From IMG/VR virus record IMGVR_UViG_3300030110_003855, positions 1-40,289 of that record: a stretch of DNA of 40,289 nt; one strand, given 5' to 3'. A program made the position numbers and the translations under genes. Position 1 is the stretch's first letter; each line of letters opens with the position of its first letter. The DNA comes from a virus. Positions 6,033 to 28,560 of the stretch are shown here, piece by piece. The notes under the pieces were generated by a model. The model was given only the letters and a program-made list of their open reading frames with translations. It was not told the DNA's origin and did not search any database.

Positions 6033-6779
6033 ATGCCAAGTACAGAACCAGGTAAACAAGATAACTTAAATACAGCAACAGCGTTGTTTTTTAAAGGTAG
6101 TCCTTTTAAATTAAAAAGTCAAAGTCCACTAAATGAGAATGGTATTAGAACAGCTATGTCAGATAAATTTAAAGCTGACACTGATGCGATCGTAAGTAAT
6201 TTACCTAATGTTAAGTTTACAACTGGTGCAGCTTTAGATGACGCTCAGAAAACTTATAGTGCTATGACTACAGAATATAAAAATAGTTTTAGTGGTGCAG
6301 ATAAATATTGGAATAGTATAGAACCTTCAACTACACCAGCGCCAGGTACGTATATAGGTAAAAAAATTAATGAACAGTGGGATCCAAGTGCTAACTCTGG
6401 AAAAGGTGGATATGTAGAAAGTAGAAGCACACGTGGTTGGGAAGTAAAAAAAGAAAAAGCTATAACTGAAGGAAAAACAAAAAAAGCTAATAGAATAGCT
6501 GAAAGAGAAGCAAGGTGGCATGAAAGACAAGGTAATGTAAAAGACGCTTCAGGAAAGTATGTTCCCGCTCCACCTAAACAAACATCAACTACCCCTCCAC
6601 CAACACCAACACCATCCCCAAAACCTGTGGAATTTAAAAATAAAGATCCATATATAAAAAAGAGTGGTGGGTATGAAGCTTTTAACAAAAGAGTTGAAGA
6701 AAATAAAACAGCAAATAAAATCTTAGGTATACCCGATTTATCAAACATAACTGGTAAAACATCATTAATAAAAAAATAA
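6033..6779 (+). CDS. Hypothetical protein with SPF motif and Pro-rich linker, 248 aa
   Basis: It begins 3 nt after the winged-helix gene with MPSTEPGKQDNLNTATALFF. Residues 18-33 carry a FFKGSPFKLKSQSPL segment, one of the shared N-terminal SPF motifs in this region. A helical, charged middle follows, then a Pro/Thr/Ser-rich linker (about residues 178-197) and a basic C-terminus ending KTSLIKK. The composition (disordered, basic, linker-bearing) suits a virion-internal or scaffold-associated protein. No domain is recognised. The large open frames antisense to it are explained by its repetitive Lys/Pro codons. Confidence 0.65.
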   Translation: MPSTEPGKQDNLNTATALFFKGSPFKLKSQSPLNENGIRTAMSDKFKADTDAIVSNLPNVKFTTGAALDDAQKTYSAMTTEYKNSFSGADKYWNSIEPSTTPAPGTYIGKKINEQWDPSANSGKGGYVESRSTRGWEVKKEKAITEGKTKKANRIAEREARWHERQGNVKDASGKYVPAPPKQTSTTPPPTPTPSPKPVEFKNKDPYIKKSGGYEAFNKRVEENKTANKILGIPDLSNITGKTSLIKK

Positions 6780-6782
6780 ACT

Positions 6783-7343
6783 ATGAATTATACAAAATCA
6801 ACAGCAGTAGGTTCACCTTTAAATTTTTTAGGTTGGGGCGCTCAACAAGCACCTGCTAAAGCATATGAAAGAACAAGGGTAGAGAATCTTCACTCTTTTG
6901 ATAAAAGACGTAACAATCCAGCTGGATCAGATGTTAGGCTTGAGGGTTTTCAACCAGGAGGAGATACTAGTAAATTTGTACAAGATAAGTTAAGTTCTAG
7001 AAATATGTTTACAGGTGCTGGATCAGTACAAGCGGCTAATCCAAACACTTACAACCAAAGTAATATACCACCAGCATCAGATTATACAACAAGTGATTTT
7101 GCTATGACGCAAATGGAGTTAGGTGAAGGCGGTTATGCACCTGGCTACGTAGCTGAAAATCAAGCTGCATTCGCTGGAACAAGTAATTTACAAGGAACAT
7201 CAGCTCCAACACCCACGCCACAAAGTAATTTTACAAGCAATGAGCAGAGCGTCATACAATCGTTGTTTGGTGCGTCTGGTTTAACTGGAGCGAGTTCTCT
7301 ATTAGGAGGTGGTTTACCAGGTCATTTCAACTATGGAGGATAA
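6783..7343 (+). CDS. Hypothetical protein with GSPL motif, Gly/Ser-rich, 186 aa
   Basis: It starts MNYTKSTAVGSPLNFLGWGA, so the SPL motif lies at residues 10-13, as in neighbours that open with SPF or SPL. The rest is low in predicted structure: an Arg/Asn-rich stretch (RRNNPAGSDVRLEG), a long Gly, Ser, Thr, Pro and Gln-rich middle, and a hydrophobic Gly-rich C-terminus (SLFGASGLTGASSLLGGGL). It is tandem with the previous gene (3-nt gap). Likely a virion-associated protein; function unknown. Confidence 0.65.
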   Translation: MNYTKSTAVGSPLNFLGWGAQQAPAKAYERTRVENLHSFDKRRNNPAGSDVRLEGFQPGGDTSKFVQDKLSSRNMFTGAGSVQAANPNTYNQSNIPPASDYTTSDFAMTQMELGEGGYAPGYVAENQAAFAGTSNLQGTSAPTPTPQSNFTSNEQSVIQSLFGASGLTGASSLLGGGLPGHFNYGG

Positions 7344-7370
7344 AATATTTAACAAGTAAAAACAATAAAC

Positions 7371-7574
7371 ATGAGAGAAGACAAACGACACACAAAAGCA
7401 TCAAAACACAATTCAGTAGGGATTGTAGGGGAATCTCATATATGGGATGGTCCTTTAGGTCAAGCAGGTAGAGATCATGCTCCTGGCTCAAGTAGGGGTT
7501 GTAAAGGTATGAAACTTAAATTGGATCCAGTACCTTATTCTGGTGGTCCAATAACAATGAAAGCCCAAGGGTAA
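7371..7574 (+). CDS. Hypothetical basic 67-aa protein
   Basis: The product starts MREDKRHTKASKHNSVGIVG and ends PITMKAQG. It is Gly, His and Lys-rich, with one Cys (SSRGCKGMKLKL) and little hydrophobic core, so it is probably disordered or part of an assembly. It is separated from its neighbours by about 20-30 bp and is read in line with them. No family recognised. Confidence 0.55.
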   Translation: MREDKRHTKASKHNSVGIVGESHIWDGPLGQAGRDHAPGSSRGCKGMKLKLDPVPYSGGPITMKAQG

Positions 7575-7595
7575 ATTTCATAAAAATTAAGTGAT

Positions 7596-8051
7596 ATGAT
7601 AAGTGAACACATCTCACTTTCAGAGGGTGTAAGAAGCATAACCGCTAAAAGACTAGGGTTAGATAACACACCTAATGAAGAGCATCTCAATAACATGAAG
7701 TTATTAGCGGTGAAAGTATTTGAACCATTAAGAAAATTTGTTGGGGGACCAATACGTATAAATTCATTTTATCGTGGACCAGAACTTAACAAAGCAATTG
7801 GTGGAAGTTCAAAATCGCAACATTGTAATGGGCAAGCAATGGACATAGATGATACATATGGACATATGTCTAATGCTACTATGTACAATTATATAAAAGA
7901 AAATTTAGATTTCGATCAGATGATTTGGGAATTTGGTACAGATGAAAACCCAGATTGGGTTCATGTTAGTTACGTAAATCCAGGAGAAAATAGAAATAGG
8001 TGTTTAAAAGCCTATAAGGTCGATAGAAAAACAGCATATAAACAAATATAA
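7596..8051 (+). CDS. Peptidase M15 family endolysin-type peptidase, 151 aa
   Basis: M15 enzymes are zinc peptidases that cut peptide cross-links of peptidoglycan (D,D-carboxypeptidase or L-Ala-D-Glu endopeptidase). The zinc signature is clear: SQHCNGQAMDID gives His76 and Asp83, and PDWVHVSY gives His123 with Asp120 placed as the catalytic acid. The INSFYRGPELNKAIGG segment before it is also typical of the family. There is no signal peptide, so export through the holin at 11475 would be needed. It is a single-domain enzyme of the usual short length, without a cell-wall-binding domain. It probably serves lysis; a virion-borne entry role is possible because it sits among virion-like genes. Confidence 0.9.
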   Translation: MISEHISLSEGVRSITAKRLGLDNTPNEEHLNNMKLLAVKVFEPLRKFVGGPIRINSFYRGPELNKAIGGSSKSQHCNGQAMDIDDTYGHMSNATMYNYIKENLDFDQMIWEFGTDENPDWVHVSYVNPGENRNRCLKAYKVDRKTAYKQI

Positions 8052-8061
8052 ATAAAACATT

Positions 8062-8898
8062 ATGGCAAATTTAGGAACAGCAAGTATTCCAATTATACCA
8101 AGTACTACTATTAATATACCCAAACCAGGTTTATTATATACAGGTGCGTCAACTAACGCGGGTGGGGCAAACACAACTTTAACCCCTGAAGCAGTTTCAC
8201 CAGCTACAACTTTTAATATGGTAAGTGTTGGTGATATAGTTTACAATACTACTGTTAGTCCTAATACTATTGGTGTAATAACAGGATTAAATTATACAGG
8301 AAGTAATATTACTTCTGTAGACACAAACATTACATGGAACGACGGTGATGATTATAATATATATCACGCATACAAAGTTTCAAATATACCTCCAGCGGTA
8401 GATATTAGTAGTCTATTAGTTGGGGATGGTACTCTAACCTCTTCAATAACCACAAACACAACAGATGGTGTAAATGGTTCTTACACTGGTGCTACGTTTT
8501 CAACAAGTGGTTCTGGAACAGGAGCAGTTATAGATGTTACTGTAAGTGGTAACGCGGTTACAGCGGTTGATGTAACTACAGCAGGTTCAGGGTATGAAGT
8601 AGGTGATACATTAACAGTTGCCACTGGCGTTATTGGTGGATCAGCTGCTTTAGTTATTACTTTAGTAGATGAAGATATAACAGGTGATGCTGCAAATGTA
8701 ACCGATATACTAAAAAATCAAGGTATGGGTGAAATAGGTATTTACACAAAAGACGCTGGTGATATTACTGGTGTTGATAGCATGGGTAATACATTTAGCA
8801 TTAGTCCTTTAGCAGGAGATACATTACCGTTTTTTGTTTCACGAATTAATACTAGCTCAGCAAGTGCTGCACTAGTAGGATTCATTAACCCCTCATAA
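8062..8898 (+). CDS. Putative virion structural protein with beta repeat domain, 278 aa
   Basis: The protein is Thr, Gly, Ser and Val-rich and beta-predicted. Residues about 136-195 hold a pattern common in phage fibre and baseplate-like proteins: STSGSGTGAVIDVTVSG followed by TTAGSGYEVGDTLTV. The N-terminus (MANLGTASIPIIPSTTINIP) and a C-terminal segment (SSASAALVGFINPS) look like surface-assembly parts. It begins 10 bp after the M15 gene. Likely a decoration, fibre or neck-appendage protein; the exact location in the virion is not visible. Confidence 0.6.
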   Translation: MANLGTASIPIIPSTTINIPKPGLLYTGASTNAGGANTTLTPEAVSPATTFNMVSVGDIVYNTTVSPNTIGVITGLNYTGSNITSVDTNITWNDGDDYNIYHAYKVSNIPPAVDISSLLVGDGTLTSSITTNTTDGVNGSYTGATFSTSGSGTGAVIDVTVSGNAVTAVDVTTAGSGYEVGDTLTVATGVIGGSAALVITLVDEDITGDAANVTDILKNQGMGEIGIYTKDAGDITGVDSMGNTFSISPLAGDTLPFFVSRINTSSASAALVGFINPS

Positions 8899-8900
8899 TC

Positions 8901-9119
8901 ATGGCATATAAACAACATAACTCACCTTTTCCTAAAAAAGAGGATTTTCCTGAAATAAAAGAAGAAAATAAAGGAAAATTTACAGCTTGGGCAAAAAGAA
9001 ATGGATATAAAGATGCATGTTCTGCTGCTAGCGCTGTAATGGCAAAAACAGATAACTATAGCGAAGAAGTTGTAAAAATGGCAAATTACGCTAAAAACTT
9101 TGGATGTAGTTCAAAATAA
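8901..9119 (+). CDS. Small protein with SPF motif, 72 aa
   Basis: It starts MAYKQHNSPFPKKEDFPEIK, with the SPF motif at residues 8-10. The remainder is a small helical unit (KFTAWAKRNGYKDACSAASA, then EEVVKMANYAKNFGCSSK) with two Cys. The next gene but for 27 bp starts MAYKQKGSPLHK, so the two share their first residues nearly identically while the rest differs. A shared N-terminal tag is the best reading. Function unknown. Confidence 0.65.
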   Translation: MAYKQHNSPFPKKEDFPEIKEENKGKFTAWAKRNGYKDACSAASAVMAKTDNYSEEVVKMANYAKNFGCSSK

Positions 9120-9146
9120 TTATTTAACAATTTAAAAATTAATACA

Positions 9147-9506
9147 ATGGCTTATAAACAAAAAGGAAGTCCTTTACATAAACACATGGTAAACTCATGG
9201 GAAGAAGAAGATGTAAAAAGAGGTAGAAAATTAGAAGCTGAAGGTCATAAAGGTCATGCTGAAGCATTATATGATGATGCACATGATAGTTATAACTGGA
9301 AGGGTGGAAATGATGGTTCAGAACCTTTTCATGCAGAATCAAGATATTTAAGTGAAGGCGGAGACGTTATAGACGAAACTGCTCAACGTATGGGATCTTG
9401 GATGTCTAAACATTCTAATTCTAGTGCATTAAATTACGGTGTACATGACGCGGACACAGAAGACATGCCTTTAGATAACCGCATGGGTAATGTAACTAAA
9501 AAATAA
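9147..9506 (+). CDS. Small protein with SPL motif, 119 aa
   Basis: It starts MAYKQKGSPLHKHMVNSWEE, nearly the same first ten residues as the gene before it, then diverges into an acidic, His-rich helical protein (EGHKGHAEALYDDAHDSYNW) ending MGNVTKK. No catalytic signature is seen. Repeated His-Gly and Asp-His pairs could bind metal, but this is weak. It is another member of the SPF-tagged set. Confidence 0.65.
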   Translation: MAYKQKGSPLHKHMVNSWEEEDVKRGRKLEAEGHKGHAEALYDDAHDSYNWKGGNDGSEPFHAESRYLSEGGDVIDETAQRMGSWMSKHSNSSALNYGVHDADTEDMPLDNRMGNVTKK

Positions 9507-9571
9507 AAACGGAGACAACCGTATAAACACTATATATTTATTTATTTATTAACAATTAAAAACAAACAATC

Positions 9572-9880
9572 ATGGCAAAATTTATATCAATAGAAACTGC
9601 TGATGCAAATAGAGGTACGCTTCTTATCAATACAGAGAATATCTTTATTGTAGCACCAGGAGATGAAAGCGCCGGTGGAGCTGATGCGGCTACAGAATGT
9701 ACTATTTTTCAAAATGGTCTTACTAGTCAAATCACTTTAGTAACCGGTGGAGGTGCAAACAACACAGGAACGTTGGTAGCGCAGCAAATTCGCAAAGCAA
9801 TTACAGCTAACCCAGGTGGTCAAGTTGCAGCTGTTAGAATGTTAGATGGAATGAGTATAACTTCTATGGTTATAGCATAA
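9572..9880 (+). CDS. Small putative structural protein, 102 aa
   Basis: The protein begins MAKFISIETADANRGTLLIN and alternates short beta strands with Gly/Ala turns (FIVAPGDESAGGADAATECT, TLVTGGGANNTGTLVAQQIR), ending MLDGMSITSMVIA. The compact beta fold without charge clusters resembles small capsid decoration or neck-type proteins. A 65-bp A/T-rich leader precedes it, holding a weak ACGG/CCGT hairpin near 9510. No family recognised, and it has no SPF motif. Confidence 0.6.
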   Translation: MAKFISIETADANRGTLLINTENIFIVAPGDESAGGADAATECTIFQNGLTSQITLVTGGGANNTGTLVAQQIRKAITANPGGQVAAVRMLDGMSITSMVIA

Positions 9881-9890
9881 TTCTAATTTT

Positions 9891-10049
9891 ATGACATCAA
9901 AAGGCTTAGGTGATACAGTAGAGAAATTTACAACAGTTACCGGAGTAAAAACTATCGTTGACAAAGTTTCGCAGGGTTTAAATATACCCTGCGGCTGTCA
10001 AGGTAGAAAAGAAGCGTTAAACGCAATATTTCCTTATAAGAAAAAATAA
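9891..10049 (+). CDS. 52-aa protein with Cys-Gly-Cys motif
   Basis: ATG 9891 opens MTSKGLGDTVEKFTTVTGVK, followed by a helix and the segment IPCGCQGRKEALNAIFPYKK. The CGC..RKE.LN..FPY ending is one I recall from several marine and flavobacterial phages, usually at the C-terminus of small proteins, so I regard it as real despite the size. The two Cys could join a metal site if the protein oligomerises. It fits exactly between its neighbours (10-bp and 5-bp gaps). Confidence 0.75.
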   Translation: MTSKGLGDTVEKFTTVTGVKTIVDKVSQGLNIPCGCQGRKEALNAIFPYKKK

Positions 10050-10054
10050 TAAAA

Positions 10055-10387
10055 ATGGCTCCATTTAAATTTCCAATGGGTGGCGGAATTAAATTAAAAC
10101 CACCATACACAACAGATAATACTCCAATATACACAGTGGAAATGGAAGATGGTATTTTAGCCAAAGCTAATAATAATGGTACTATTATTATATCAGAAGA
10201 ATTACATCCAAGCCAAAGCGAAGAGGTAATTAATCATGAAAAAGTTCACCTAGAACAAATAAAAAGAGGTGATCTTAACTATGATGATACATATGTGTAT
10301 TGGAAAGGTAAAAAATATTTAAGAAGCAAAATTCAAGAGGGTAATAAAAAACTTCCTTGGGAAGCTGAAGCTTATAGAAGAGCATAA
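10055..10387 (+). CDS. Minimal HExxH metallopeptidase-like protein, 110 aa
   Basis: The C-terminal half carries HEKVH (His61, Glu62, His65), the zinc-binding and catalytic motif of gluzincin-type metallopeptidases, then a GDLNYDDTYVYWKGK strand region and PWEAEAYRRA, where Glu103 or Glu105 could be the third ligand. The N-terminus (MAPFKFPMGGGIKLKPP) precedes a short beta segment. At 110 aa it is a very small version of the fold. Possible roles are virion maturation or local processing; the substrate cannot be read from the sequence. The opening MAPFKFPMGG is loosely like the SPF-tag openings. Confidence 0.6.
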   Translation: MAPFKFPMGGGIKLKPPYTTDNTPIYTVEMEDGILAKANNNGTIIISEELHPSQSEEVINHEKVHLEQIKRGDLNYDDTYVYWKGKKYLRSKIQEGNKKLPWEAEAYRRA

Positions 10388-10406
10388 CTACTAAACAAAT
10401 AAAAAC

Positions 10407-11471
10407 ATGGCATTTAAATTATCACCAGGAAGAAGTCCTTTTAATAAAACAGGGCACGGAATTCCAAGTCCTTTATTAGGATTAACTAAGCAACAAAGAC
10501 AACAAAAGAAAGCAATGAAGAATCTTGTTAAAGAAGGTGCTACAGAATTTGCTATTGAAAGCGGTGGTGTCGTAGCTACTAAATATGGTGGATCAGGTAA
10601 ACTAGATAGGTTATCAAGAAGAAACATTAGACAATTTTTTAAAGGAAAAGATCTAGATAATGAAATAAATACTCGTAAAAAAGTTACTAGAGAGGGTTCT
10701 GTTTTATTACATACAGATAAGCCTGAGCACAGCCATCCTCATAAAAAAGTACAATTAAATACAAAAAAAGAAGCTCTTGATGCTGCAAAAATTAAGCCAT
10801 TAGATGATTCAGGAAGAGTTTATACAAAAGTAGAAGGTAGTGATTTTGAAACTCGTACACCAATTGATGGTGGTACACAAATTACAAAAGGTTATACAGA
10901 AACTTCTCCAGGTAGAAAAGTAGAAAAAGTTGCTAGTACAAGTAAATATCATAAAAGTTTAATGCCTGAGTTTACTAAACTTAAAGGAAATTTACCCTCA
11001 GGAGTAACTAATATAACTGAATATGGTAAATGGAAAGCAGATAAAGCTGGTTATGGTGCGAAGAGTAGAGTAAAAACAGATACTAGTATAGAAAGATCCG
11101 TAAAAGACATAAAGCTTGAAAGAAAAGATCCAGTAGAATTAAAAATAGATAAACCATCTTTAATACCAATGCCTACCAGAGTAACTGGTGGTGGTGACGA
11201 TAGCTCTGTAGATAAAGATCCATTAGAAGGTAAAAAGTTAAGAGTTGGTGAGTTAACAAAACCACCAAAAGAAAAGAAAAGAAAACAGCCTAAACCGCCA
11301 AGGGTGAAAAAAGAAATACCACCAAGAGTTAAAAAAGAAAAAATTCCTAAACCACCAAGAGAGAAAAAAATAAGAGAAAAGAAAATAAAACCAGAAAAAC
11401 CATCTAGAGGTCAAAGGTTGGTTGAGAAAGGATTAAGCAAAGGTGGAGTTTGTCCTCCTTGTGATTGTTAA
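10407..11471 (+). CDS. Basic virion-associated-type protein with SPF motifs and CPPCDC end, 354 aa
   Basis: It starts MAFKLSPGRSPFNKTGHGIP and then SPLLGLTKQQRQQKK, so it holds an LSP, an SPF and an SPL element in its first 25 residues. The middle is Lys, Glu and Thr-rich. The last 90 residues are an extreme Lys/Pro tract of repeated PPR(V/E)KKE-like units, followed by GGVCPPCDC at the very end. The basic tail suggests nucleic-acid contact, for example DNA packing in the capsid. The terminal Cys cluster could bind metal or form disulphides. No catalytic domain recognised. Confidence 0.65.
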   Translation: MAFKLSPGRSPFNKTGHGIPSPLLGLTKQQRQQKKAMKNLVKEGATEFAIESGGVVATKYGGSGKLDRLSRRNIRQFFKGKDLDNEINTRKKVTREGSVLLHTDKPEHSHPHKKVQLNTKKEALDAAKIKPLDDSGRVYTKVEGSDFETRTPIDGGTQITKGYTETSPGRKVEKVASTSKYHKSLMPEFTKLKGNLPSGVTNITEYGKWKADKAGYGAKSRVKTDTSIERSVKDIKLERKDPVELKIDKPSLIPMPTRVTGGGDDSSVDKDPLEGKKLRVGELTKPPKEKKRKQPKPPRVKKEIPPRVKKEKIPKPPREKKIREKKIKPEKPSRGQRLVEKGLSKGGVCPPCDC

Positions 11472-11474
11472 ATC

Positions 11475-11927
11475 ATGGCAAAGAAAAAATTTAAAGATAC
11501 TAAAGTTGGTGCGTTTTTATCTAAAGCTGCTCCAGGTATTTTAGGTTTAGCAGGTGATGTATTACCAGATGCTGGTGTTTTTGGTTTAGTTAAAAATTTA
11601 ATAACTAAAGACAAACAACTACCACCTGAAGATAAAGAAAAAGCATTAAAATTATTAGAACAAGATATGGTTGAAATGCAAGAAATATCCAAACGCTGGG
11701 ATAGTGACATGAAATCTGATTCATGGCTTTCTAAAAACACGCGACCAATGTCTTTAATATTTTTAACTGTTTCAATGGTTGTATTAATATTATTAGATAG
11801 TTTAAATATAGAATTTAGCGTTGCAGAAGGATGGGTGACATTATTACAAACACTTTTAGTTACAGTATATGTAGCCTATTTTGGTTCTCGTGGAGCTGAA
11901 AAATTTCAAACTATTACAAAAAAATAA
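11475..11927 (+). CDS. Holin, 3-TM (GTA_holin_3TM-like), 150 aa
   Basis: Holins open the inner membrane so that the endolysin can reach the wall. The protein has a basic start (MAKKKFKDTKVGAFLSKAAP), a moderately hydrophobic N-terminal helix (about 11-42), a charged helix (47-85), then SWLSKNTRPMSLIFLTVSMV opening a transmembrane span at 91-109 and a second at about 119-137 ending YVAYFGSRGAEKF. The KNTRP then LLQTLLVTVYVAYFGSRG order is the pattern I associate with this holin superfamily. It is separated from the M15 peptidase by 3.4 kb, so the lysis genes are dispersed. Confidence 0.8.
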   Translation: MAKKKFKDTKVGAFLSKAAPGILGLAGDVLPDAGVFGLVKNLITKDKQLPPEDKEKALKLLEQDMVEMQEISKRWDSDMKSDSWLSKNTRPMSLIFLTVSMVVLILLDSLNIEFSVAEGWVTLLQTLLVTVYVAYFGSRGAEKFQTITKK

Positions 11928-12680: not shown

Positions 12681-15032
12681 ATGGCAATACAATTTTTAAA
12701 TAACGTCGATTTAGGCTTTTATAGCAGTGAAGGTCTAGCAATTCAATCCCAATCTGCGGAACCAAGTACTACACAAACTGGTGCGGTATACTATGATACT
12801 GATGATAACTCATTAAAAATATATGATGGTGGATGGAACGATATAGGTGGGTCATGGACTATAGAAGATGGTGCTGGTAATTCTCAAACAATTGATATTG
12901 GTAATACATTAACGGTTTTAGGTGGTACAGGAGTTACAACTGCTGTAAGTGCCACTGATACTTTAACAATTACAGCAACTGGTTCTTTATATGCTTTTAA
13001 AACTATATCAGTTTCAGGTCAATCAGACGTTGTAGCTGATGCAAGTGATGATACTTTAACGCTTGTTGCAGGTACAAATATGACTATCACCACCGACGCA
13101 GGTGCTGATTCTGTAACCTTTAATTCAACAGACCAATACTCAGGTACTGTTACTTCAATAACGCTAGCTGCCGATTCAGGCACTGGTACAGCAATAACTT
13201 CTTCAGGAACATTTACGTTTTCAGGTGGTACTAACGTAACCACTTCTGTAACTGGTACTACAGTAACAATAAACTCAGCTGATCAATACTCAGGTACTGT
13301 TACATCTGTTGGCACAGGAGATGGTTTAACAGGTGGAACAATTACCACGTCAGGAACAATAGAAATTGATTACAGTGGCACAGACAATGCTATTCTAGTA
13401 GCTGGAGATTTAACAGGTACAAGTATAGCAACTAGTGATGTGATATGGTATAGTGATGCTAGTGATGATGTTATTAAAAAAGGTAATGTTTCAGATTTAC
13501 CTTTTGATGCCTCAGGTGGTACAGTTACTTCGGTTAATTACACCCACCAAGGAAATGCGTTTACAGTAGGTGGTGCTCCAGTAACAAGTAGTGGTACTAT
13601 AGCTGTTACTATGGCGGGATCTTCCTCACAATATATTGATGGTGAAGGTAATTTAGCAACATACGATAATGGTACTGTTACTAGTGTATCGACAGGTGAT
13701 GGCTTAACAGGTGGACCAGTAACAACAACAGGTACTATTGAGGTGGATTACGCAGGTAGTGATAACGTTGTGCTTGCGGCTGCTGATGGAACAAGTTTAA
13801 CCGCCGCAGCAACCGATAAAGTATTAATGAGTGATGCAAGTGATGATAACGCTTATTATGTTAACTTATCTCAACTAAAAACTTATATAGACAGTGGTGG
13901 AACAGTGACTAGTGTAACTAGTGGAAATACTGATACCATAACTATAGGTGGAACAGCTACTGCTCCTACCGTTGCAGCTAATACAGCGGCTGTAGCAGAT
14001 GCTAGCGCAAACCTAGCCACAGGGGATCAAATATATGATTTTGTAACCGGTCAAGGTTATGGAACTGGTACGGTAACTTCAGTTACTGTTGCTGGTGGTG
14101 ATGGTTTAACTAGTTCAGGATCACCTATTACAACAAGTGGTACAATAACATTAGCTCTTGATTATGCAGGTACAGATAACTATATACTTGTACCGGCTGA
14201 TGCAACAGCTGCCGCAGGGGATAGCATAGCATTTAGTGATAGTGATGATTTAGCTACAGTAAAAGAATCAACTTTTGGAGATATACCAATGGCTGCTCTT
14301 ACGTTAGTAAAAGCTTATATAGATTCTGCAACAGCAGGGGCTTTAGTTTTTCAAGGGGGTTATGATGCATCAACAACGGGTCCTAATAGTTCAGCAGAAA
14401 AAGGTTGGACATACGTTGTAACAACAGGTGGTGATGGTGGTGGTTACTGGTCAGTTGATCTAGAAGTTGGGGATTTAATTATCGCAAATGATGATAATCC
14501 ATCTAGTGAAGCTGATTGGACAGAAGTACAAAAAAATGTAGATTTAGCAACAGCTTCTAGTGTTGGTATTGGTAATGTAGTTCCAGGAAGTACAAGTACA
14601 GTTACAGCACCATATTCAAGTGGTACCGCTACATTAGACGTTGTAGATAGTACAGCGAGTCAAAAAGGTGCGGTAATCGTTGAGGGTGGAACTGGTGTTA
14701 CAGTAACTTATTCTTCTGGTACAGCAACAGTTGCAACAGACGGTGGATCAAGTAAAAAAATAACATTAAACTCTGCAGACGCTTGGATAAGTGTTGGAAC
14801 ATCAGGTGATGTGAAAACATATACAGTGGACTTAGATAATACCAATGTATTTGGTACTGGTGTTTCCGCTGAAAATATTATGGCTGAATGTTATAAAGCT
14901 AGTGATGGCACAACAGCATTCCCTGAAATAGCAAGAACTACAACTGGTACCACTAATCCAGCAATTGATTTTGCTTTCTTAAATAGCCCAGCAGATAGTG
15001 ACTATATAGTGTTATTACACAATGTTGGGTAA
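12681..15032 (+). CDS. Repetitive tail fibre protein, 783 aa
   Basis: It begins MAIQFLNNVDLGFYSSEGLA and has an AVYYDTDDNSLKIYDGG module typical of phage fibres. Residues about 155-500 hold six variable repeats opening GTVTSV and often continuing GDGLTGG and TSGTIE.DYAGTDN. The C-terminal 280 residues change character (ADWTEVQKNVDLATAS region, then a compact tip ending YIVLLHNVG). The Gly, Thr, Ser and Asp composition suits a long trimeric fibre shaft. Its first seven residues are the same as those of the next gene. It is probably a receptor-binding fibre; repeat number may vary between strains. Confidence 0.8.
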   Translation: MAIQFLNNVDLGFYSSEGLAIQSQSAEPSTTQTGAVYYDTDDNSLKIYDGGWNDIGGSWTIEDGAGNSQTIDIGNTLTVLGGTGVTTAVSATDTLTITATGSLYAFKTISVSGQSDVVADASDDTLTLVAGTNMTITTDAGADSVTFNSTDQYSGTVTSITLAADSGTGTAITSSGTFTFSGGTNVTTSVTGTTVTINSADQYSGTVTSVGTGDGLTGGTITTSGTIEIDYSGTDNAILVAGDLTGTSIATSDVIWYSDASDDVIKKGNVSDLPFDASGGTVTSVNYTHQGNAFTVGGAPVTSSGTIAVTMAGSSSQYIDGEGNLATYDNGTVTSVSTGDGLTGGPVTTTGTIEVDYAGSDNVVLAAADGTSLTAAATDKVLMSDASDDNAYYVNLSQLKTYIDSGGTVTSVTSGNTDTITIGGTATAPTVAANTAAVADASANLATGDQIYDFVTGQGYGTGTVTSVTVAGGDGLTSSGSPITTSGTITLALDYAGTDNYILVPADATAAAGDSIAFSDSDDLATVKESTFGDIPMAALTLVKAYIDSATAGALVFQGGYDASTTGPNSSAEKGWTYVVTTGGDGGGYWSVDLEVGDLIIANDDNPSSEADWTEVQKNVDLATASSVGIGNVVPGSTSTVTAPYSSGTATLDVVDSTASQKGAVIVEGGTGVTVTYSSGTATVATDGGSSKKITLNSADAWISVGTSGDVKTYTVDLDNTNVFGTGVSAENIMAECYKASDGTTAFPEIARTTTGTTNPAIDFAFLNSPADSDYIVLLHNVG
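13143..14180 (+). repeat. Six degenerate coding repeats in the tail fibre shaft
   Basis: Repeats open with GTVTSI/V at about 13143, 13293, 13516, 13672, 13900 and 14067. They share a beta-strand rhythm and partial sequence (GDGLTGG, TSGTI, DYAGTDN) but not exact DNA identity, so they are protein-level repeats rather than recent tandem duplications. Confidence 0.7.
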
Positions 15033-15049: not shown

Positions 15050-18000
15050 ATGGCTATACAATTTTTAAATACCGGAAATTTTCCAGATGATGCCCAATTG
15101 ACTTTTGGAAACTCTTCAGATTTAAAAATATACCACGACGCGGGAGCTAGTACTTATATGGAAAATACTAGCGGCGATTGGTATATTATGCAACGTACTG
15201 ATAATGGCAACATGGTATTTCAATGTGATGATGGTGATAATGGTGACACAACATATTTTTCATTAGATGGTGGTAGTGCTGAGCATAGTGGTGCTGAAAT
15301 AACAGCATTATATACTAAATTTCCAGATAAATCCAGGATAGCTTTAGGTACTGGAAAAGATCTTCAATTATATCACGATGGAACACATAGTTATATTAAA
15401 GCGCTCAATACGGGAGATTTGTATGTTCAAAGCGATAATGATGATGTTGTAATTCAAGCTGCTGATGATGTCTTTATATATACTCAAGCTGGAGAAGATG
15501 CTATAATAGCAAGAGGCGAGGGTGGTGTTTACCTTTACTATAATAATAGCGAGAGACTTCAAACAACAAATGCAGGTATTGATTTTACAGGTAGTGGAAA
15601 TTTTACAAAAGCTACTAGTGGTAATTCATTTGTTCTTACCGCAACAGATTCAAATGATAACCAACCATTAGAAGTTGTTGGTACGAGATCAGATGAAAAT
15701 GGTCCAATGATTTCAATATATCATAATCAAGGATCAGGTAACGCTACTGATGGTGATCTGTCAACTTTACGTTTTAATGCATTAAACAGTGCTGATGAAA
15801 AAACACTATACTCAAAAATAGGTTTTAGAGCTAACGATGTAACTGACGGAACTGAAGATGGTGCTATAATATTTGAAACAAAGGCTAATGGTAGTGAGAT
15901 TCTTCAATTAACATTAGACACGAGTTCAGGTGATGCAAGAGCAACTTTTGAAGGTAAAGTTGGAATTGGGACCGCAACCCCTTACGCAAAACTAGATGTA
16001 GTTAATGGTACTAACAATAATGAAGCAGCAGACGCTACTGATTTCAGGTTTGTTGCAGCTAATAGAGCTATTACTACAGAAAGAGCTAATATGGAAATCT
16101 ATACCAATAACGCCCAAGCAGCAGATTTAGGTGGTAGTATAGGTTTTGGTGGTAGACATACAGATTCGTCTACAAATGATAGTTTATTTGCAACAATAAA
16201 AGCTGGTAAATCAAATGCTACAACTGGTAATTATTTAGGTTATTTAGAAATTGGTACATCAGATGCGGCAAGTGATATAACACGAAGATTTCATATAGAT
16301 AGTACAGGAGCAACTTTTGCAGGGACTGTTGAAGCTGGAGGAACAATATCACAAACATCTGGAAACATCCTTGGTAGAGGATATTTAAATCTTCAAAATG
16401 GATATGGAGCTGCTAATGGAATTTATTTATATGGTAATCCTGCTATGTATAGAGAGGATGCTAATACCTTATATTTTCCATTAAATGCCGCAACTTTTGC
16501 AGGTGCAGTAACCATAGATAGTATAACAGAAATTGGTAGTGACACAGATAAGTTTTTAATGTCTGATTCAGGTACCGTTAAATATGTTAGTGGTGCTAAT
16601 CTTAAAACATATATTGGTGCTAGTGGACCAGATGGAAGTGGTACTGGAAATACAATTGCAAAATGGTCAGATAGTGATACCCTTACAGATTCTAGTATGA
16701 CGGATGACGGATCAGATATTACCGCAACCGTGGATGGGTTCTATATTGAAAGCGGTGATTTAAGAATACAAACTTCAGATAACACTTCAGGAAAAATATA
16801 TTTAGGTAAAACTAGTGGTACACAAGCAAGTTCTTTAATAGATGCTAGTCATAATTTAGAAATTGATGCAGCAACTTATACCGGTACTGGTCACTTATTA
16901 TTAAGAATAGATAGTGTTACAAAAGCAACTATAGATAGTAGCGGTGTAACATTGAATGATGATACAGAGGTACAGGGAGCTCTAGAGGTTACTGGATCAA
17001 CTGTAAAGATTACTAACGCATCTTTTCCTAGTCTGGAAATTGGGTCTGGTGGGCTTTACAAAATTCTTAAAGATACTAGTAGTGGAAATACCCTAGAGAT
17101 TTATAGTGGTGCACTTACTCCTACTATTGAAATGAATACAACTGCTGATGCAACTTTTGGAAATGATGTAAGTATCCCATCGGGAGGGTTGAGTTTTGAT
17201 GATCTCGGTTCCGCATTTACATCATATGATAGTAATTTTTATTCAAGATTTACACGTGATGACGCAAATTTACAACTAGGGTTATTTAGAGCTGGTGGTG
17301 GTGCTGGCGATGGTGGTGTTTATATAGGTGGTGATTCTGGAGGATTTAATATATATTCTACAAATTCTGATGATACAATAAATACTCAGATATTAGATTT
17401 AGACATGAGTGGTAACCTTCAAATTGATGGTAGTATTGATTCAGATGGAACATCAACTAATACTTTTGCAGGCGCCGTAGATGCTACAAATTTTTTAATT
17501 AACGGTGCTCAGGGTTCAGCTAATCAGGTAATAACATCAACAGGTTCAGGTGTTGCGTGGCTAACCCCATCAGGAGGTGGCGGAGGGTCTTCACAGTGGA
17601 CAACAATTGGTAGTAATATTTATTATAACACTGGTAATGTGGGTATAAATTTATCCTACCCTAAATCACGTCTTCATGTTGAAGGAACAATTAAACAAAC
17701 ATCCATAAACGCAAGTGAACAAGGTTTTTTTACTTCTGAAAGTGATCCTTATATAAAAGCAGCAGGTTATGGTAAAGGAAGATTTGCAGGTGCTTCAGGC
17801 GCTGACAATGTTGTTCAAACATACGCAGGATTTACTGAGACAGGAAAAATAGTTGAAACAAGAATAACTCGAATCGTAAAGATAAACGCTAATTCTTGGG
17901 GATCTCAAAATGCTGGTAATGGAAGTAATCAAGTAAGATTAACTAATAAAGTAACTGACGGAGTAATTATACCAATGAGTGTTACGGTAAGACTAAATGG

Positions 18001-18742
18001 AACTTCTCCTTTAAATGGTAGTGGAAGCTGGGGAAGTGAAGATTACCCTATTCAATTAATTATGTATGGGGGTAGTACTTCAGGAGATAAACCTTGGGTT
18101 GTTCTTGGTGGTATACCTAAAGCAATCCTAGAAGACACAAACATTAATAATAGATATTATAAAATACCTTTTGATTACCCCAACGTCGGATACAACACTT
18201 CAGCAGCAGATCGTTGTTGGACTAATAGTGGTTCAGGTAGCCCAGGTAATATAGGATATTCAAATAACCTAGCTTTTATATTACAGGGAACAACAGCTAT
18301 TAAAAATAATAGTAGTTTAGATGATATGTACGTTCATGTGGAATATGTACCAGTTAATGTAAATTCCTGGGATACTCATTTTAATAGAGCGACAAAGAGT
18401 CAAAGTTACGGCTATAACACTAATGCTGTTACGGCTTTTTATATGAGTAACAATCAACAAAGTGGAATTTGTGGTGCAGGATATGCTAAACCAGCAAATA
18501 ATATAAAATATTGGCACAATGGAAGAAAACTTTATCCACAAGTAGGAAATACAATTTATCAATCTAATTCTGATGGAACCCCTAATCTTACAAATGCGGG
18601 TAGGGCTTATAACGGGTATTATTATTTATATTCTTCTGGAGGTAAAAGATATTATTTAAGAGTATACTCCACACCAGGTGGAACAGGACCCGGAGGGGTT
18701 ACTCTTTCAACTAGTTGTAATATTCCACCACCAACATCTTAA
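15050..18742 (+). CDS. Giant tail fibre protein, 1230 aa
   Basis: The start MAIQFLNTGNFPDDAQLTFG shares MAIQFLN with the preceding fibre. Repeated units with SSDLKIYHDAG and GKDLQLYHDGTHSYIK are the family's shaft modules. GKVGIGTATPYAKLDV (about residue 303) and NVGINLSYPKSRLHVEG (about 863) are the collar-like motifs often seen near fibre tips. The C-terminal 250 residues are Gly, Asn, Ser and Tyr-rich (NGYYYLYSSGGKRYYLRV) and probably form the tip. Unlike many such fibres, it has no S74 chaperone domain at its end; that domain instead appears in the gene at 37385. Likely the main adsorption fibre. Confidence 0.8.
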   Translation: MAIQFLNTGNFPDDAQLTFGNSSDLKIYHDAGASTYMENTSGDWYIMQRTDNGNMVFQCDDGDNGDTTYFSLDGGSAEHSGAEITALYTKFPDKSRIALGTGKDLQLYHDGTHSYIKALNTGDLYVQSDNDDVVIQAADDVFIYTQAGEDAIIARGEGGVYLYYNNSERLQTTNAGIDFTGSGNFTKATSGNSFVLTATDSNDNQPLEVVGTRSDENGPMISIYHNQGSGNATDGDLSTLRFNALNSADEKTLYSKIGFRANDVTDGTEDGAIIFETKANGSEILQLTLDTSSGDARATFEGKVGIGTATPYAKLDVVNGTNNNEAADATDFRFVAANRAITTERANMEIYTNNAQAADLGGSIGFGGRHTDSSTNDSLFATIKAGKSNATTGNYLGYLEIGTSDAASDITRRFHIDSTGATFAGTVEAGGTISQTSGNILGRGYLNLQNGYGAANGIYLYGNPAMYREDANTLYFPLNAATFAGAVTIDSITEIGSDTDKFLMSDSGTVKYVSGANLKTYIGASGPDGSGTGNTIAKWSDSDTLTDSSMTDDGSDITATVDGFYIESGDLRIQTSDNTSGKIYLGKTSGTQASSLIDASHNLEIDAATYTGTGHLLLRIDSVTKATIDSSGVTLNDDTEVQGALEVTGSTVKITNASFPSLEIGSGGLYKILKDTSSGNTLEIYSGALTPTIEMNTTADATFGNDVSIPSGGLSFDDLGSAFTSYDSNFYSRFTRDDANLQLGLFRAGGGAGDGGVYIGGDSGGFNIYSTNSDDTINTQILDLDMSGNLQIDGSIDSDGTSTNTFAGAVDATNFLINGAQGSANQVITSTGSGVAWLTPSGGGGGSSQWTTIGSNIYYNTGNVGINLSYPKSRLHVEGTIKQTSINASEQGFFTSESDPYIKAAGYGKGRFAGASGADNVVQTYAGFTETGKIVETRITRIVKINANSWGSQNAGNGSNQVRLTNKVTDGVIIPMSVTVRLNGTSPLNGSGSWGSEDYPIQLIMYGGSTSGDKPWVVLGGIPKAILEDTNINNRYYKIPFDYPNVGYNTSAADRCWTNSGSGSPGNIGYSNNLAFILQGTTAIKNNSSLDDMYVHVEYVPVNVNSWDTHFNRATKSQSYGYNTNAVTAFYMSNNQQSGICGAGYAKPANNIKYWHNGRKLYPQVGNTIYQSNSDGTPNLTNAGRAYNGYYYLYSSGGKRYYLRVYSTPGGTGPGGVTLSTSCNIPPPTS

Positions 18743-19190: not shown

Positions 19191-19420
19191 TGGAATCAGC
19201 AGTTGTTAGAAAAATAAGTATAGGTTCTGACTATAAAAACGAAGCTATGCATTATTCTTTAGGTCAAACAGTATATGGTGGACATGAGATCTGTGATATA
19301 TTATTTGATATTGATGACAATTCTTACAACATTTTTATTAAAAAAAATGACGAGGTATTACCATGGAAAAAATTTAATTCCAATATGGCAATATCCGTAG
19401 AGTATGATTTAGAATATTAA
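19190..19420 (+). CDS. Hypothetical 76-aa protein
   Basis: Translation opens MESAVVRKISIGSDYKNEAM at a TAATG junction and continues as a small beta protein (HYSLGQTVYGGHEICDILFD, then SYNIFIKKNDEVLPWKKF), ending VEYDLEY. The layout of a short strand, a helix and further strands is similar to other small phage proteins around terminase genes. It is coupled to the next gene by another TAATG. Function unknown. Confidence 0.65.
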   Translation: MESAVVRKISIGSDYKNEAMHYSLGQTVYGGHEICDILFDIDDNSYNIFIKKNDEVLPWKKFNSNMAISVEYDLEY

Positions 19421-20025
19421 TGAAAAGCTTGTATAAATTTATTATTAAACCTATTAACACTAGGTATAATAATAAAAAGAAAATAGGTGATAAAAATCTT
19501 ATATTAAATACTAAAATTGAAAATCATAGGTTTGTTAGTAGGGAAGCTATAGTTATAGAAACACCATTAGCATTTAAAACAAATATAAAACCTGGTGATA
19601 ACGTAATAGTTCATTTCAATGTATTTAGAAGATTTTATGACATAAGAGATAAAGAAAAAGATAGTTCATCTTTTTTTAAAGAAGACTTATTTTTTTGTGA
19701 TCCATCTCAAATATATCTTTACAAAACAAAAAATAAATGGTACACACATTTAGACTATTGTTTTGTTAAACCTATTATTGACAACAACCTATTAAGTCAA
19801 AATAAAGAAAAACCTTTAACAGGTATATTAAAACATAGTAATAACACTTTAAAAAACTTAGGTGTTAACAAAGAAGATTTAATAGGTTTTAAACCTATTA
19901 GTGAATTTGAATTTATCGTTGATAATGAAAGATTCTATTGTATGAAATCAAATGATATTGTAATTAAGTATGAATACGAAGGAAACGAAAAAGAATATAA
20001 TCCAAGCTGGACAACGAGCTGTTGA
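19420..20025 (+). CDS. Tandem GroES-like co-chaperonin-type protein, 201 aa
   Basis: Two copies of a GroES-like beta-barrel pattern can be traced. The first spans about residues 6-103: FIIKPINTRYNNKKK, then REAIVIETPLAFKTNIKPGD and NVIVHFNVFRRF, with the IKPGDNVIVH element that mirrors the VKxGDxVIF of GroES. The second spans about 115-187: FVKPII, PLTGILKHSN, NKEDLIGF and EFEFIVDNERF, again barrel-like with a terminal DIVIKYEYEG. I recall proteins of this type being annotated as GroES-like in marine phages. It sits just before the terminase genes, far from groEL/groES. Whether it caps the phage GroEL is inference. It overlaps the next gene by 56 nt. Confidence 0.5.
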   Translation: MKSLYKFIIKPINTRYNNKKKIGDKNLILNTKIENHRFVSREAIVIETPLAFKTNIKPGDNVIVHFNVFRRFYDIRDKEKDSSSFFKEDLFFCDPSQIYLYKTKNKWYTHLDYCFVKPIIDNNLLSQNKEKPLTGILKHSNNTLKNLGVNKEDLIGFKPISEFEFIVDNERFYCMKSNDIVIKYEYEGNEKEYNPSWTTSC

Positions 20026-20245
20026 TGAATTAATCAAAGTAGCTAAAGAAAAAATTGTTGATTCAGAAGATGACGTATCAGCAGATAGATTAAAAAACGC
20101 TGCTGCTACTAAAAAACTAGCTATATTCGATGCTTTTGAAATTCTGTCTAGAATTGAAGAAGAAGAAAACTTACTTAATGATAAACAGAGTGAAACAAAA
20201 AAAACTAATAGTTTTAAAGGTTTTGCGGAAGGAAGATCAAAATAA
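19970..20245 (+). CDS. Putative terminase small subunit, 91 aa
   Basis: Start ATG 19970 (MNTKETKKNIIQAGQRAVDE). The protein is helical, with the segment ADRLKNAAATKKLAIFDAFE and a charged coiled-coil end. It directly precedes the large terminase (TAATG junction) and has the size of a small subunit that would recognise DNA and assemble as a ring. The 56-nt overlap with the upstream gene is unusually long but the reading frame is good. The call rests on position and helical character, not on a motif. Confidence 0.6.
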   Translation: MNTKETKKNIIQAGQRAVDELIKVAKEKIVDSEDDVSADRLKNAAATKKLAIFDAFEILSRIEEEENLLNDKQSETKKTNSFKGFAEGRSK

Positions 20246-22464
20246 TGTACGAGCAAACACTATATAGAATAGTAAACAATCATATAAAACCTAAATTGCT
20301 ATCTAAAAATAATAGATATAATAAATGGCAATATGGTTATGATAGAGAACATGATGTTGTAATCATTAGTAAAACAGGTAAGATAGGTGATATAATTGAA
20401 ATACAAGGATTAAAAATTGCATTACCTCAACAACCTAAAGAAATAACTAAATTTAATAGTGACAAATGGGAGGTAACTCCACAACCAAAAGACCTACAAA
20501 GAATTAAAACAATTTTTGATTGGAAAGAATATCCTGAATCATTTAAAGAAAAATGGTTTAATTATATAGATGATGAATTTGATAGAAGAGAAAATGGGTT
20601 TTGGTTTATAAACAAAGGAATTCCTACATATATTACAGGTACACATTATATGTATTTACAATGGTCTAAAATAGATGTTGGTAATCCTGATTTTAGAGAG
20701 GCTAATAGATTATTTTATATTTTTTGGGAAGCTTGTAAAGCAGATGAAAGATGTTATGGAATGTGTTATCTTAAAAATCGTAGATCTGGTTTTTCTTTTA
20801 TGGCATCTGGTGAGTGTGTAAACATGGCTACTATATCAACTGATTCAAGGTTTGGTATATTATCAAAATCAGGTCCTGATGCTAAAAAAATGTTTACCGA
20901 TAAAGTGGTACCAATATCAGTCAACTACCCTTTCTTTTTTAAACCGATTCAAGATGGTATGGATCGACCAAAAACAGAATTAGCGTATAGAGTACCAGCC
21001 TCAAAGTTTACTAGAAGAAAACTAGAAACTAACGAGCAAATAGAAGAAATTACAGGATTAGATACTACTATAGATTGGAAAAACACTGGTGATAATAGTT
21101 ATGATGGTGAAAAATTAAAACTATTAGTACATGATGAAAGTGGTAAATGGGAGAGACCTAATAATATTTTAAATAACTGGAGAGTAACAAAAACTACGTT
21201 AAGATTAGGTAGTAGAATTATTGGTAAGTGTATGATGGGAAGTACATCAAACGCTTTAGATAAAGGTGGAGATAATTTTAAAAAATTATATGATGATTCA
21301 GATGTCACAAAAAGAAACGCCAATGGACAGACTCGCTCAGGATTATATTCTTTGTTCATACCTATGGAATGGAATTACGAAGGATACATTGATTCTTATG
21401 GGTTACCTGTATTCGAGACGCCTAAAAAACCTATAGAAGGTCCTCATGAGGAATTTATTTGGACTGGTGTAATAGAGTATTGGCAGAATGAAGTAGATGG
21501 TTTAAAAGAAGATCACGATGCTTTAAATGAGTTTTATAGACAATTTCCTAGAACAACTCAACACGCTTTTAGAGATGAAGCAAAACAATCTTTATTTAAT
21601 TTAACTAAAATATATCAACAAGTTGACTACAATGAAGATTTAAAAAATACATCTGTAGTAACACAGGGTAATTTTCAATGGGAAAATGGAATTAAAGATA
21701 CTAAAGTTGTTTTTCATCCCAACAATAAAGGTAGATTTTTTATTAGTTGGACACCACCACAACGTTTACAAAATAAAATTTTTACAAAAAATGGTAGAAA
21801 ATATCCAGGTAATGAGCACTTAGGTGCTTTTGGTTGTGATAGTTATGATATATCAGGAACAGTAGATAATAGAGGATCTAATGGATCTTTACATGGTTTA
21901 ACCAAGTTTTCTATGGAAGATGTTCCACCAAATATATTTTTTTTAGAATATATATCACGACCACCAACAGCCGAGATATTCTTTGAAGATGTTTTAATGG
22001 CTTGCGTATTTTATGGTATGCCGTTGTTAGCGGAAAATAATAAACCTAGATTATTATATCATTTTAAAAGAAGAGGTTATAGAGGATATTCTATGAATAG
22101 ACCAGATAAAGTTTGGTTTAAACTATCCACCGCAGAAAAAGAAATTGGAGGAATTCCTAATTCCAGTGAAGATATTAGACAAGCACATGCTGCTGCAATT
22201 GAATCTTATATAGAGGATTTTGTAGGGTATCAAGAAGAAGGTTTATGTGGTAACATGTACTTTCAACGTACATTAGAAGATTGGGCAAAGTTTAATATAA
22301 ATAATAGAACAAAACACGATGCATCAATTAGTTCAGGATTAGCAATTATGGCATGCAATAAAAATCGTTATGTTCCAATGGCAGAAAAGATTAATAAAAA
22401 AATTGATATTAAGTTTGCTAAATTTAATAACAAAGGAAATATATCACAAATAATAAATAGATGA
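20245..22464 (+). CDS. terL: Terminase large subunit, 739 aa
   Basis: TerL pumps and cuts phage DNA. ATPase motifs: Walker A-like KNRRSGFS (177-184) and Walker B LKLLVHDES (291-299) with Asp297-Glu298. Nuclease acidic residues: Asp532 in FGCDSYD, Glu597 in LLAENN, and Asp692 in TKHDASISSG, the expected order of the RNase H-like active site. Both domains are present, so packaging and cutting are complete in one protein. The length is in the range of crAss-like terminases. It overlaps portal by an ATGA junction. Confidence 0.93.
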   Translation: MYEQTLYRIVNNHIKPKLLSKNNRYNKWQYGYDREHDVVIISKTGKIGDIIEIQGLKIALPQQPKEITKFNSDKWEVTPQPKDLQRIKTIFDWKEYPESFKEKWFNYIDDEFDRRENGFWFINKGIPTYITGTHYMYLQWSKIDVGNPDFREANRLFYIFWEACKADERCYGMCYLKNRRSGFSFMASGECVNMATISTDSRFGILSKSGPDAKKMFTDKVVPISVNYPFFFKPIQDGMDRPKTELAYRVPASKFTRRKLETNEQIEEITGLDTTIDWKNTGDNSYDGEKLKLLVHDESGKWERPNNILNNWRVTKTTLRLGSRIIGKCMMGSTSNALDKGGDNFKKLYDDSDVTKRNANGQTRSGLYSLFIPMEWNYEGYIDSYGLPVFETPKKPIEGPHEEFIWTGVIEYWQNEVDGLKEDHDALNEFYRQFPRTTQHAFRDEAKQSLFNLTKIYQQVDYNEDLKNTSVVTQGNFQWENGIKDTKVVFHPNNKGRFFISWTPPQRLQNKIFTKNGRKYPGNEHLGAFGCDSYDISGTVDNRGSNGSLHGLTKFSMEDVPPNIFFLEYISRPPTAEIFFEDVLMACVFYGMPLLAENNKPRLLYHFKRRGYRGYSMNRPDKVWFKLSTAEKEIGGIPNSSEDIRQAHAAAIESYIEDFVGYQEEGLCGNMYFQRTLEDWAKFNINNRTKHDASISSGLAIMACNKNRYVPMAEKINKKIDIKFAKFNNKGNISQIINR

Positions 22465-24866: not shown

Positions 24867-24895
24867 ATTTTTTATTAATTTTATAATATTATATT

Positions 24896-26179
24896 ATGTC
24901 AAAAACAAAAAAAGAAGAAGTGGTTGAAAAAACCACAGATGAAATAAAAGAAGTTAAAACGGCTTCTGAAGATGTTCAAAGTGAAGGTGGTGATATGAAA
25001 ATGAAAAAGAAGGTAAAACCAACTTTCAAAAAGAACACGGGTGAAAATAACGTTACAAAAATAGACTTATCAAAGCCCCCAAAATCTGAACAACAAAAAG
25101 TTGAAGAACAAGTAGAACAAACTAAACAAGAAGACGATGCCATTCCAATCGGAGAGACAAAGAAGGTGGATGTGGGAGAACAAACCGGAGATAGCACTAA
25201 AGTGGACGAACAAGTACAAGAGTCCAGCGAAGATGCTAAAACTGAAGAAAACCCAATCCAAGAAATAAACGAAGAAGAACCTAAGGAAAAGGTAGAAACG
25301 CAAGATGGTAGAACACCAGTTACATCACAAGAAAACAGTGATGTAGTGTATATGCCAGACAGTGTTAAAAAACTTGTTGACTTTATGGATGATACAGGTG
25401 GATCTATTGATGATTATGTAAGATTAAATGCTGACTATTCAAAAATAGATAATAATACTTTGTTAAAAGAGTATTATAAAAAAACTCGACCACATTTAGA
25501 TAATGAAGAAATATCTTTTTTAATGGAAGATAATTTTTCATATGATGAAGAGGTTGATGAAGAGCGAGCTGTTAAAAAGAAAAAACTAGCTCGTAAAGAA
25601 GAAATTGCAAAAGCCAAAAACTTTTTAAACGGTTTAAAAGACAAATATTACGAGGAGATTAAATTAAGACCCACGGTGTCTAATGAACAAAGAAAAGCAA
25701 TGGACTTTTTCAATGATTATAACAAGCGAGAAGAAGTAGCCAAACAACAGCATGAGGATTTTGTTGATACTACTAAAAAAATGTTCTCTGATGAATTCAA
25801 AGGTTTTGATTTTAGCGTTGGAGAAAAGAAATTTAGATACGGTATTAAAGATGCAAATAAAGTTGGGGAATCTCAATCAAATATTAACACATTTATTAGG
25901 AAGTTCTTAAATGAAAAAGGTGAAGTAAATGATTATGCAGGATACCACAAAGCTATTTATGCCGCACAGAATGTTGATACTATTGCCAAACATTTTTACG
26001 ATCAAGGTAAAGCAGATGCTACAAAAAATATTATGAAGCAATCTAAAAACATTGATGAAAAACCAAGGCAAGCACCTGAAGACGTTTACGTTGGAGGTTG
26101 GAAAGTACGAGCAGTAACTGACGGTACAGATCTCAGCAAGTTAAGAATTAAAAAACCAAAGTTTAATAAAAACAATTAA
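24896..26179 (+). CDS. Putative capsid scaffolding protein, 427 aa
   Basis: The first 150 residues are acidic, low-complexity and Glu/Lys/Val-rich. The rest is helical with charged heptads (KKKKLARKEEIAKAKNFLNG, KKMFSDEFKGFDFSVGEKKF) and a short conserved-looking end (QAPEDVYVGGWKVRAVTDGT). Position between portal and capsid and the helical-acidic composition are the usual signs of a scaffold, which is removed as the capsid matures. A protease domain is not seen in it. Confidence 0.7.
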   Translation: MSKTKKEEVVEKTTDEIKEVKTASEDVQSEGGDMKMKKKVKPTFKKNTGENNVTKIDLSKPPKSEQQKVEEQVEQTKQEDDAIPIGETKKVDVGEQTGDSTKVDEQVQESSEDAKTEENPIQEINEEEPKEKVETQDGRTPVTSQENSDVVYMPDSVKKLVDFMDDTGGSIDDYVRLNADYSKIDNNTLLKEYYKKTRPHLDNEEISFLMEDNFSYDEEVDEERAVKKKKLARKEEIAKAKNFLNGLKDKYYEEIKLRPTVSNEQRKAMDFFNDYNKREEVAKQQHEDFVDTTKKMFSDEFKGFDFSVGEKKFRYGIKDANKVGESQSNINTFIRKFLNEKGEVNDYAGYHKAIYAAQNVDTIAKHFYDQGKADATKNIMKQSKNIDEKPRQAPEDVYVGGWKVRAVTDGTDLSKLRIKKPKFNKNN

Positions 26180-26190
26180 AATTAAAAATC

Positions 26191-27612: not shown

Positions 27613-27620
27613 TAACAATT

Positions 27621-27661
27621 AAAAGCAAAGGGATCTTCGGATCCCTAGGCTTTTATTTTTT
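27621..27661 (+). terminator. Rho-independent terminator after the capsid gene
   Basis: AGGGATC - TTCG - GATCCCT forms a perfect 7-bp stem with a UUCG tetraloop. It is extended by AAAAGC (27621) and GCTTTT (27649), then followed by a T-rich run. It lies 8 bp after the stop of the major capsid gene. The stop and this hairpin would cap a high-level capsid transcript. Confidence 0.85.
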
Positions 27662-27683
27662 AACTATTTAATTATATTATATT

Positions 27684-28520: not shown

Positions 28521-28530
28521 CACATTATTA

Positions 28531-28560
28531 TATACGGGCTCATTTATTTGAGCCCTTATA
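28531..28560 (+). terminator. Possible terminator or RNA-end hairpin
   Basis: GGGCTCA - TTTATT - TGAGCCC forms a 7-bp GC-rich stem flanked by TATA/TATA ends, 16 bp after the 278-aa gene. The following T-run is weak (TTATATAAATT), so it may instead stabilise the transcript end. Confidence 0.55.

Follow-up and report, generated by a model that had tools for sequence, protein, structure and literature searches.

Why should neighbouring late proteins of one marine phage, unrelated in their bodies, begin with the same few residues? The question is raised by a record of an uncultured marine podovirus (40,289 bp; this whole stretch of DNA is called the window here), in which five proteins carry Ser-Pro-Phe or Ser-Pro-Leu (SP[FL]) near their N termini. 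The shared start is a tag on late proteins, modular in build, particular to one lineage and conserved as a peptide. From the comparisons described below, we consider it fairly probable that this lineage-specific SP tag is capsid-targeting-like and loads accessory proteins into the virion.

The virus and its phage group

The virus is also represented by a longer record (G001, 67,976 bp), 99.3-100% identical over the window; at least two further tagged genes lie in that record (99-100% identical), outside the window. The phage group is identified by a block of head genes on the plus strand (20245-30763) that encodes the terminase, the portal (22461), the 24896 protein, a candidate major capsid protein (26191), the 27684 protein and two head/neck proteins. 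The terminase, portal and capsid proteins tie the window to the Flavobacterium elemo phages, Maribacter phage Panino, MW202828 and the Pervagoviridae (phi38:1, phi40:1), with a portal 34-41% identical to those of phi40:1 and elemo and a terminase 45% identical to that of elemo. Homology of these three proteins, together with the order of the head genes, places the virus among the Pervagoviridae/Elemovirus-related podoviruses. The relatives surveyed here are marine podoviruses that carry the window's portal gene at about 65% identity, a group that is widespread.

A phage GroEL (3793-5346, plus strand) and groES (at 5324) neighbour the tagged cluster; GroEL is not thought to be the partner of the tag. 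An M15 peptidase endolysin (7596-8051, plus strand) lies inside the cluster and a holin-like protein (11475-11927, plus strand) ends it, both marking a late-gene context. A second, longer GroES-like protein (PHROG co-chaperonin, 19420-20025) stands directly upstream of the terminase and is kept in related phages. The fibre-like proteins at 12681-15032 and 15050-18742 both start with a MAIQFLN anchor, a second case of a shared start, of the usual fibre type.

Five neighbouring proteins with a common start

All five open reading frames begin where the original prediction had placed them (6033, 6783, 8901, 9147 and 10407), with the motif within the first 31 residues. Three have orphan bodies. The 248-residue protein at 6033-6779 (plus strand) has the N-terminal motif FKGSPFKLKSQSPLN and a tag, FFKGSPFKLKSQSPLN, at residues ~19-34; it showed no Pfam or PHROG match and no relative beyond its own virus. 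The 186-residue protein at 6783-7343 (plus strand) joins the tag MNYTKSTAVGSPLNF (VGSPLNF) to a Gly/Gln-rich body. The 354-residue, Lys-rich protein at 10407-11471 (plus strand) carries two copies of the motif (MAFKLSPGRSPFNKTGHGIPSPLLG; MAFKLSPGRSPFNK..IPSPLLG), and a search for relatives beyond its own virus gave none.

The widest family is that of the 72-residue protein at 8901-9119 (plus strand), in which the tag MAYKQHNSPFPKK precedes a helical body. Across 25 aligned members Ser8 and Pro9 never change, whereas the residues around them and the length do, and the SP tag is present on 45 of the 49 unique copies of the family. In the structural model the tag is disordered (pLDDT ~47-53) and the body forms three helices with moderate confidence; a PDB search with the body fold gave no match. 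A relative 72% identical to this protein lies on a contig of a Flavobacteriaceae MAG (L300, PANU01000065.1), which hints at the host group, or else at a phage contig binned there.

The 119-residue protein at 9147-9506 (plus strand) bears the tag MAYKQKGSPLHKH on a body unrelated to that of 8901. As had been predicted, the likeness between these two proteins is confined to residues 1-12 (66.7%), and no pair of bodies among the five proteins is similar at E<1. Neither megablast of the region against phages nor tblastn with a tag peptide gave a match.

A further protein of the region (10055-10387, plus strand; 110 residues) contains an HExxH motif (HEKVH ... PWEAEAY) and belongs to a family of putative metallopeptidases that many related phages encode and that is assigned to PHROG families without known function. 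Its start in the window's virus is divergent (MAPFKFPMGGGIKLKPPY); in relatives it reads MSFKLKSPF, MAFKLNSPF or MAFKLDNPPY, so that the family is SP-tagged in some relatives and begins with MAFKLxNPPY in others.

The motif is enriched at the N termini of late proteins

The core of the tag is M-x(0-8)-SP[FL]-x-K, often doubled as SPFQKxFxxKSPL; a second copy occurs in 25 of 67 tagged clusters, mostly at +10, and the typical strong form is MSSPFQKxFxxKSPL. The leading Lys/Phe-Lys of the motif as originally drawn is common but not required.

Within the window, SP[FL] falls in residues 1-35 of 5 of 37 plus-strand genes, against a mean of 0.39-0.51 and a maximum of 3 in shuffled proteins (Poisson P about 2e-4). 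Among 591 protein clusters, dereplicated from 162 related loci and the window, 69 carry it in the first 35 residues, compared with 8.4-10.6 (8-11; maximum 19) after shuffling. The original prediction had staked itself on shuffled proteins and on related genomes; the motif proved far more frequent than in the former and is present across the latter. Its density in the relatives drops five-fold along the protein, from 4.4 per 1000 positions at the N terminus to 0.86 in the middle and 0.79 at the C terminus. No excess was found in control phages, with observed against expected counts of 3/3.9 in cultured relatives, 13/10.8 in other marine phages and 0/0.9 in cyanophages, or in a sister lineage with a different start, GRT (1 observed, 1.9 expected). 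A general feature of cultured relatives is thereby ruled out. The SPLTY of the 27684 family and the SPxYF of the GroES-like protein are core sequence and were excluded as tags.

In twelve long records, 53 of 539 late-strand genes are tagged and only 1 of 312 early-strand genes (Fisher P=5e-10). Tagged genes are concentrated in two places, from groES to the terminase and beyond a giant protein of 2300-2700 residues. Genes were called by a simple longest-ORF rule, so single start codons may be off. SP[FL] is written in 48 DNA spellings, with serines of both the TCN and AGY types; since the codons vary freely, the peptide is the conserved level, and a DNA-level element at gene starts is ruled out.

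Homologous bodies carry exchanged tags

In a sister lineage (L215-L217, G007), whose portal is 47% identical to that of the window's clade, bodies of the DUF6321, 8901 and YPSAYAN types recur under another start. In the window's clade they bear SP[FL]; in the sister lineage they start with [KRP]GRTKK (MATKGRTKK, MPGRTKK, MAKKGRTKK), and that lineage is essentially without SP tags, with one in its whole set.

A third kind of start is found on marine contigs classed as T4-like by the resemblance of their genes to those of cyanomyophages. Here DUF6321 and CWxG bodies begin with MIGFKEFITE, MDTFKQYISE, MKSFLEHLTE or MKTFKQFINE, assigned to the class of T4 capsid-targeting sequences (CTS) with a loose pattern, and the adjoining genes have the same kind of start; T4 ipII and ipIII begin MKTYQEFIAE. 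The exchange is visible at the junction itself, where near-identical bodies follow swapped starts (MTYIQNNSPFLK-TAAWTRKEGKDPKGG, MKSFLEHLTE-TAAWTRKAGKNPTGG and MAK-TAAWTRKEGKDPKGG). Counting against a capsid address, DUF6321 bodies can also exist without such tags, since all three are missing from 66 of 86 DUF6321 proteins and the start of the DUF6321 protein in the cultured cyanophages S-BM3, S-RIM2 and S-8S29 is not T4-type. We regard tag exchange as the deciding evidence for an address tag.

Tagged bodies resemble phage cargo

Most tagged proteins are small (median 102 residues), and their bodies are more basic than other late proteins (K+R 0.21 vs 0.14, P=9e-11). They include DUF6321 and CWxG domains, the 8901 domain, DUF5872-like YPSAYAN domains (a weak Pfam match) and many orphans. 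The large probable ejection proteins of the window's clade are without the tag, which counts against a virion-loading role. By inspection, the tags are polar and basic with no hydrophobic stretch, and lack the features of secretion signal peptides (Sec, Tat, lipobox cysteine).

Among reference-phage proteins, a search for homologues of tagged bodies found only the 8901 domain in Crassvirales and the 27684 family. In cr128_1 the 8901 body is contained in the orthologue of crAss001 gp45 (E=1.7e-11); in cr127_1 it forms the N terminus of a 576-residue protein with partial similarity to gp45, and in cr50_1 it stands alone as a 72-residue protein adjoining the head genes. The link to gp45 runs via cr50_1 and cr128_1, the direct profile match of 8901 to crAss001 gp45 being short and weak. 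In crAss001 particles, both the capsid and the tail contain gp45 as cargo (PMC10172136).

Two observations concern the wider family of bodies. Tagged proteins at L156:2311-2832 and L097:1784-2179 contain repeated SPxxMGH units (KSPAKMGHSPLEGH...), possibly several tandem copies of the tag. Small basic domains (DUF6321, YPSAYAN, LRxWF, CWxG) recur, singly or strung together, in many marine phages (L233, L237, L294, L299), as if drawn from a common pool of cargo modules; in P-SCSP2 a YPSAYAN protein lies between the scaffold and capsid genes.

What the tag may address

That a short conserved start on unrelated bodies acts as an address tag, the central claim of the original prediction, is strongly supported by the enrichment, the restriction to late genes, the conservation at protein level and the exchange of tags. 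Four destinations had been offered. The best supported is the capsid interior, and scaffold docking would be a plausible route into it.

A destination on the outside of the virion is unlikely, although variable bodies on a short common N-terminal anchor are typical of fibres. The tag would then be a docking peptide of decoration, head-fibre or collar proteins, in keeping with the MAIQFLN start of both fibre-like genes and with the position of the tagged genes near fibre, lysis and head genes. Against this, the tagged bodies are small and basic, and their homologues carry T4-type sequences for targeting to the capsid interior or form part of a Crassvirales cargo protein.

The basic residues around the motif, and the many basic bodies, could instead reflect binding to DNA or to a host protein, after delivery or in the producing cell and unrelated to packaging. 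We judge this slightly more doubtful still: SP[FL] differs from the classical SPKK DNA-binding motif, and an assembly partner better fits both the late-only distribution and the replacement of whole tags by unrelated sequences on homologous bodies.

The tag may include a processing site, also among the four, but as its main role a site for a maturation protease or other N-terminal processing would be improbable. Prohead protease does remove the N-terminal peptide of T4 internal proteins (PMC9958956), and the HExxH protein at 10055, a member of the cluster, bears the tag in some relatives. However, a constant SP[FL] with variable flanks is unlike a cleavage consensus, a second copy at +10 is frequent, and no prohead protease of the S77 (PF03420) or S78 (HK97) type was detected in ten related, possibly incomplete records (T4 control for S77 positive, 4e-113). 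Any cleavage of the tag would therefore be made by something else.

Recognition by the phage chaperonin, another of the four destinations, is disfavoured to the point of being very improbable. The groEL and groES genes adjoin the cluster and all surveyed SP-tagged genomes encode GroEL, but so do the Flavobacterium elemo phage, Maribacter Panino, MW202828 and the GRT-tag lineage (L215), which are without SP tags; moreover, the usual target of GroEL is exposed hydrophobic surface, not a fixed tag. Chance or composition, conceivable for a motif just three residues long, is ruled out by the shuffles and control phages and has a negligible probability given the clade- and position-specific occurrence and the invariant Ser-Pro of the 8901 alignment.

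Under the capsid-interior reading, the tag would bind a component of phage assembly, such as the portal, the inner capsid surface or a scaffold/core protein like 24896, and this binding would pack accessory proteins into the head during assembly. The packed proteins would probably be ejected with the DNA for a role early in infection, like the internal proteins of T4, and their bodies would turn over fast while the tag persists. We give slightly less than even weight to a broader model, in which tailed phages of different lineages exchange cargo domains and re-address them with lineage-specific N-terminal tags, SP[FL], GRTKK and the T4-type start being three non-homologous addresses on one pool of small basic bodies. 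Were it true, virion-loading tags would form a code of general use that can evolve, each tag with its cognate receptor in assembly, and the sequence would suffice to read it.

If the capsid-targeting reading is right, lists of tags would predict dozens of orphan phage proteins as virion cargo without proteomics, making them candidate counter-defence or take-over proteins, and would supply a short peptide with which proteins could be loaded into phages of marine Bacteroidota. Capsid-targeting tags would also have arisen in unrelated sequence forms that are swapped on common cargo bodies, so that the selection of internal proteins by phages becomes testable.

Relation to known packaging systems

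The literature searched held no description of the SP tag, which may still be described somewhere, and we found neither a cultured phage with the tag nor virion proteomics of any tagged phage. Among cultured relatives, Cellulophaga phi38:1 and phi40:1 and Flavobacterium elemo have terminase, portal and capsid genes homologous to those of the window; the late proteins of Pervagoviridae/Elemovirus, unlike those of the window's clade, are without SP tags. In phi40:1 (L083), gp069, gp077 and gp080 are small virion proteins detected by mass spectrometry and encoded upstream of the head genes, with no SP tags; two of the three are very Lys-rich, and gp069 and gp080 are basic like the tagged bodies.

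The crAss001 cargo proteins gp45 and gp46 share with the tagged proteins a setting in Bacteroidota phages and, through the gp45 orthologue of cr128_1, the 8901 body as a domain. They are, however, large dedicated ejection proteins without the SP tag, and no short common tag has been described for them. In phage P1, the N-terminal 30 residues of DarB suffice to package a reporter (PMC9024508); the N termini of the P1 Dar proteins have no common consensus, whereas the SP tag is one motif on dozens of proteins.

The nearest parallel is the T4 CTS, a sequence of ~10 residues that sends proteins to the prohead core, foreign ones included (PMC9958956, PMC3012670). Like the CTS of ipII and ipIII, the SP tag is a short conserved N-terminal peptide on otherwise unrelated, fast-evolving, basic late proteins. 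The two differ in phage group and are unrelated in sequence (SPFQKxFxxKSPL against MKTYQEFIAE): the SP tag does not fit the CTS consensus MK[TS][YF]xx[FY][IL]xE and has no [LI]xE cleavage site. By this analysis, the SP tag appears to work like the T4 CTS without being a member of that family.
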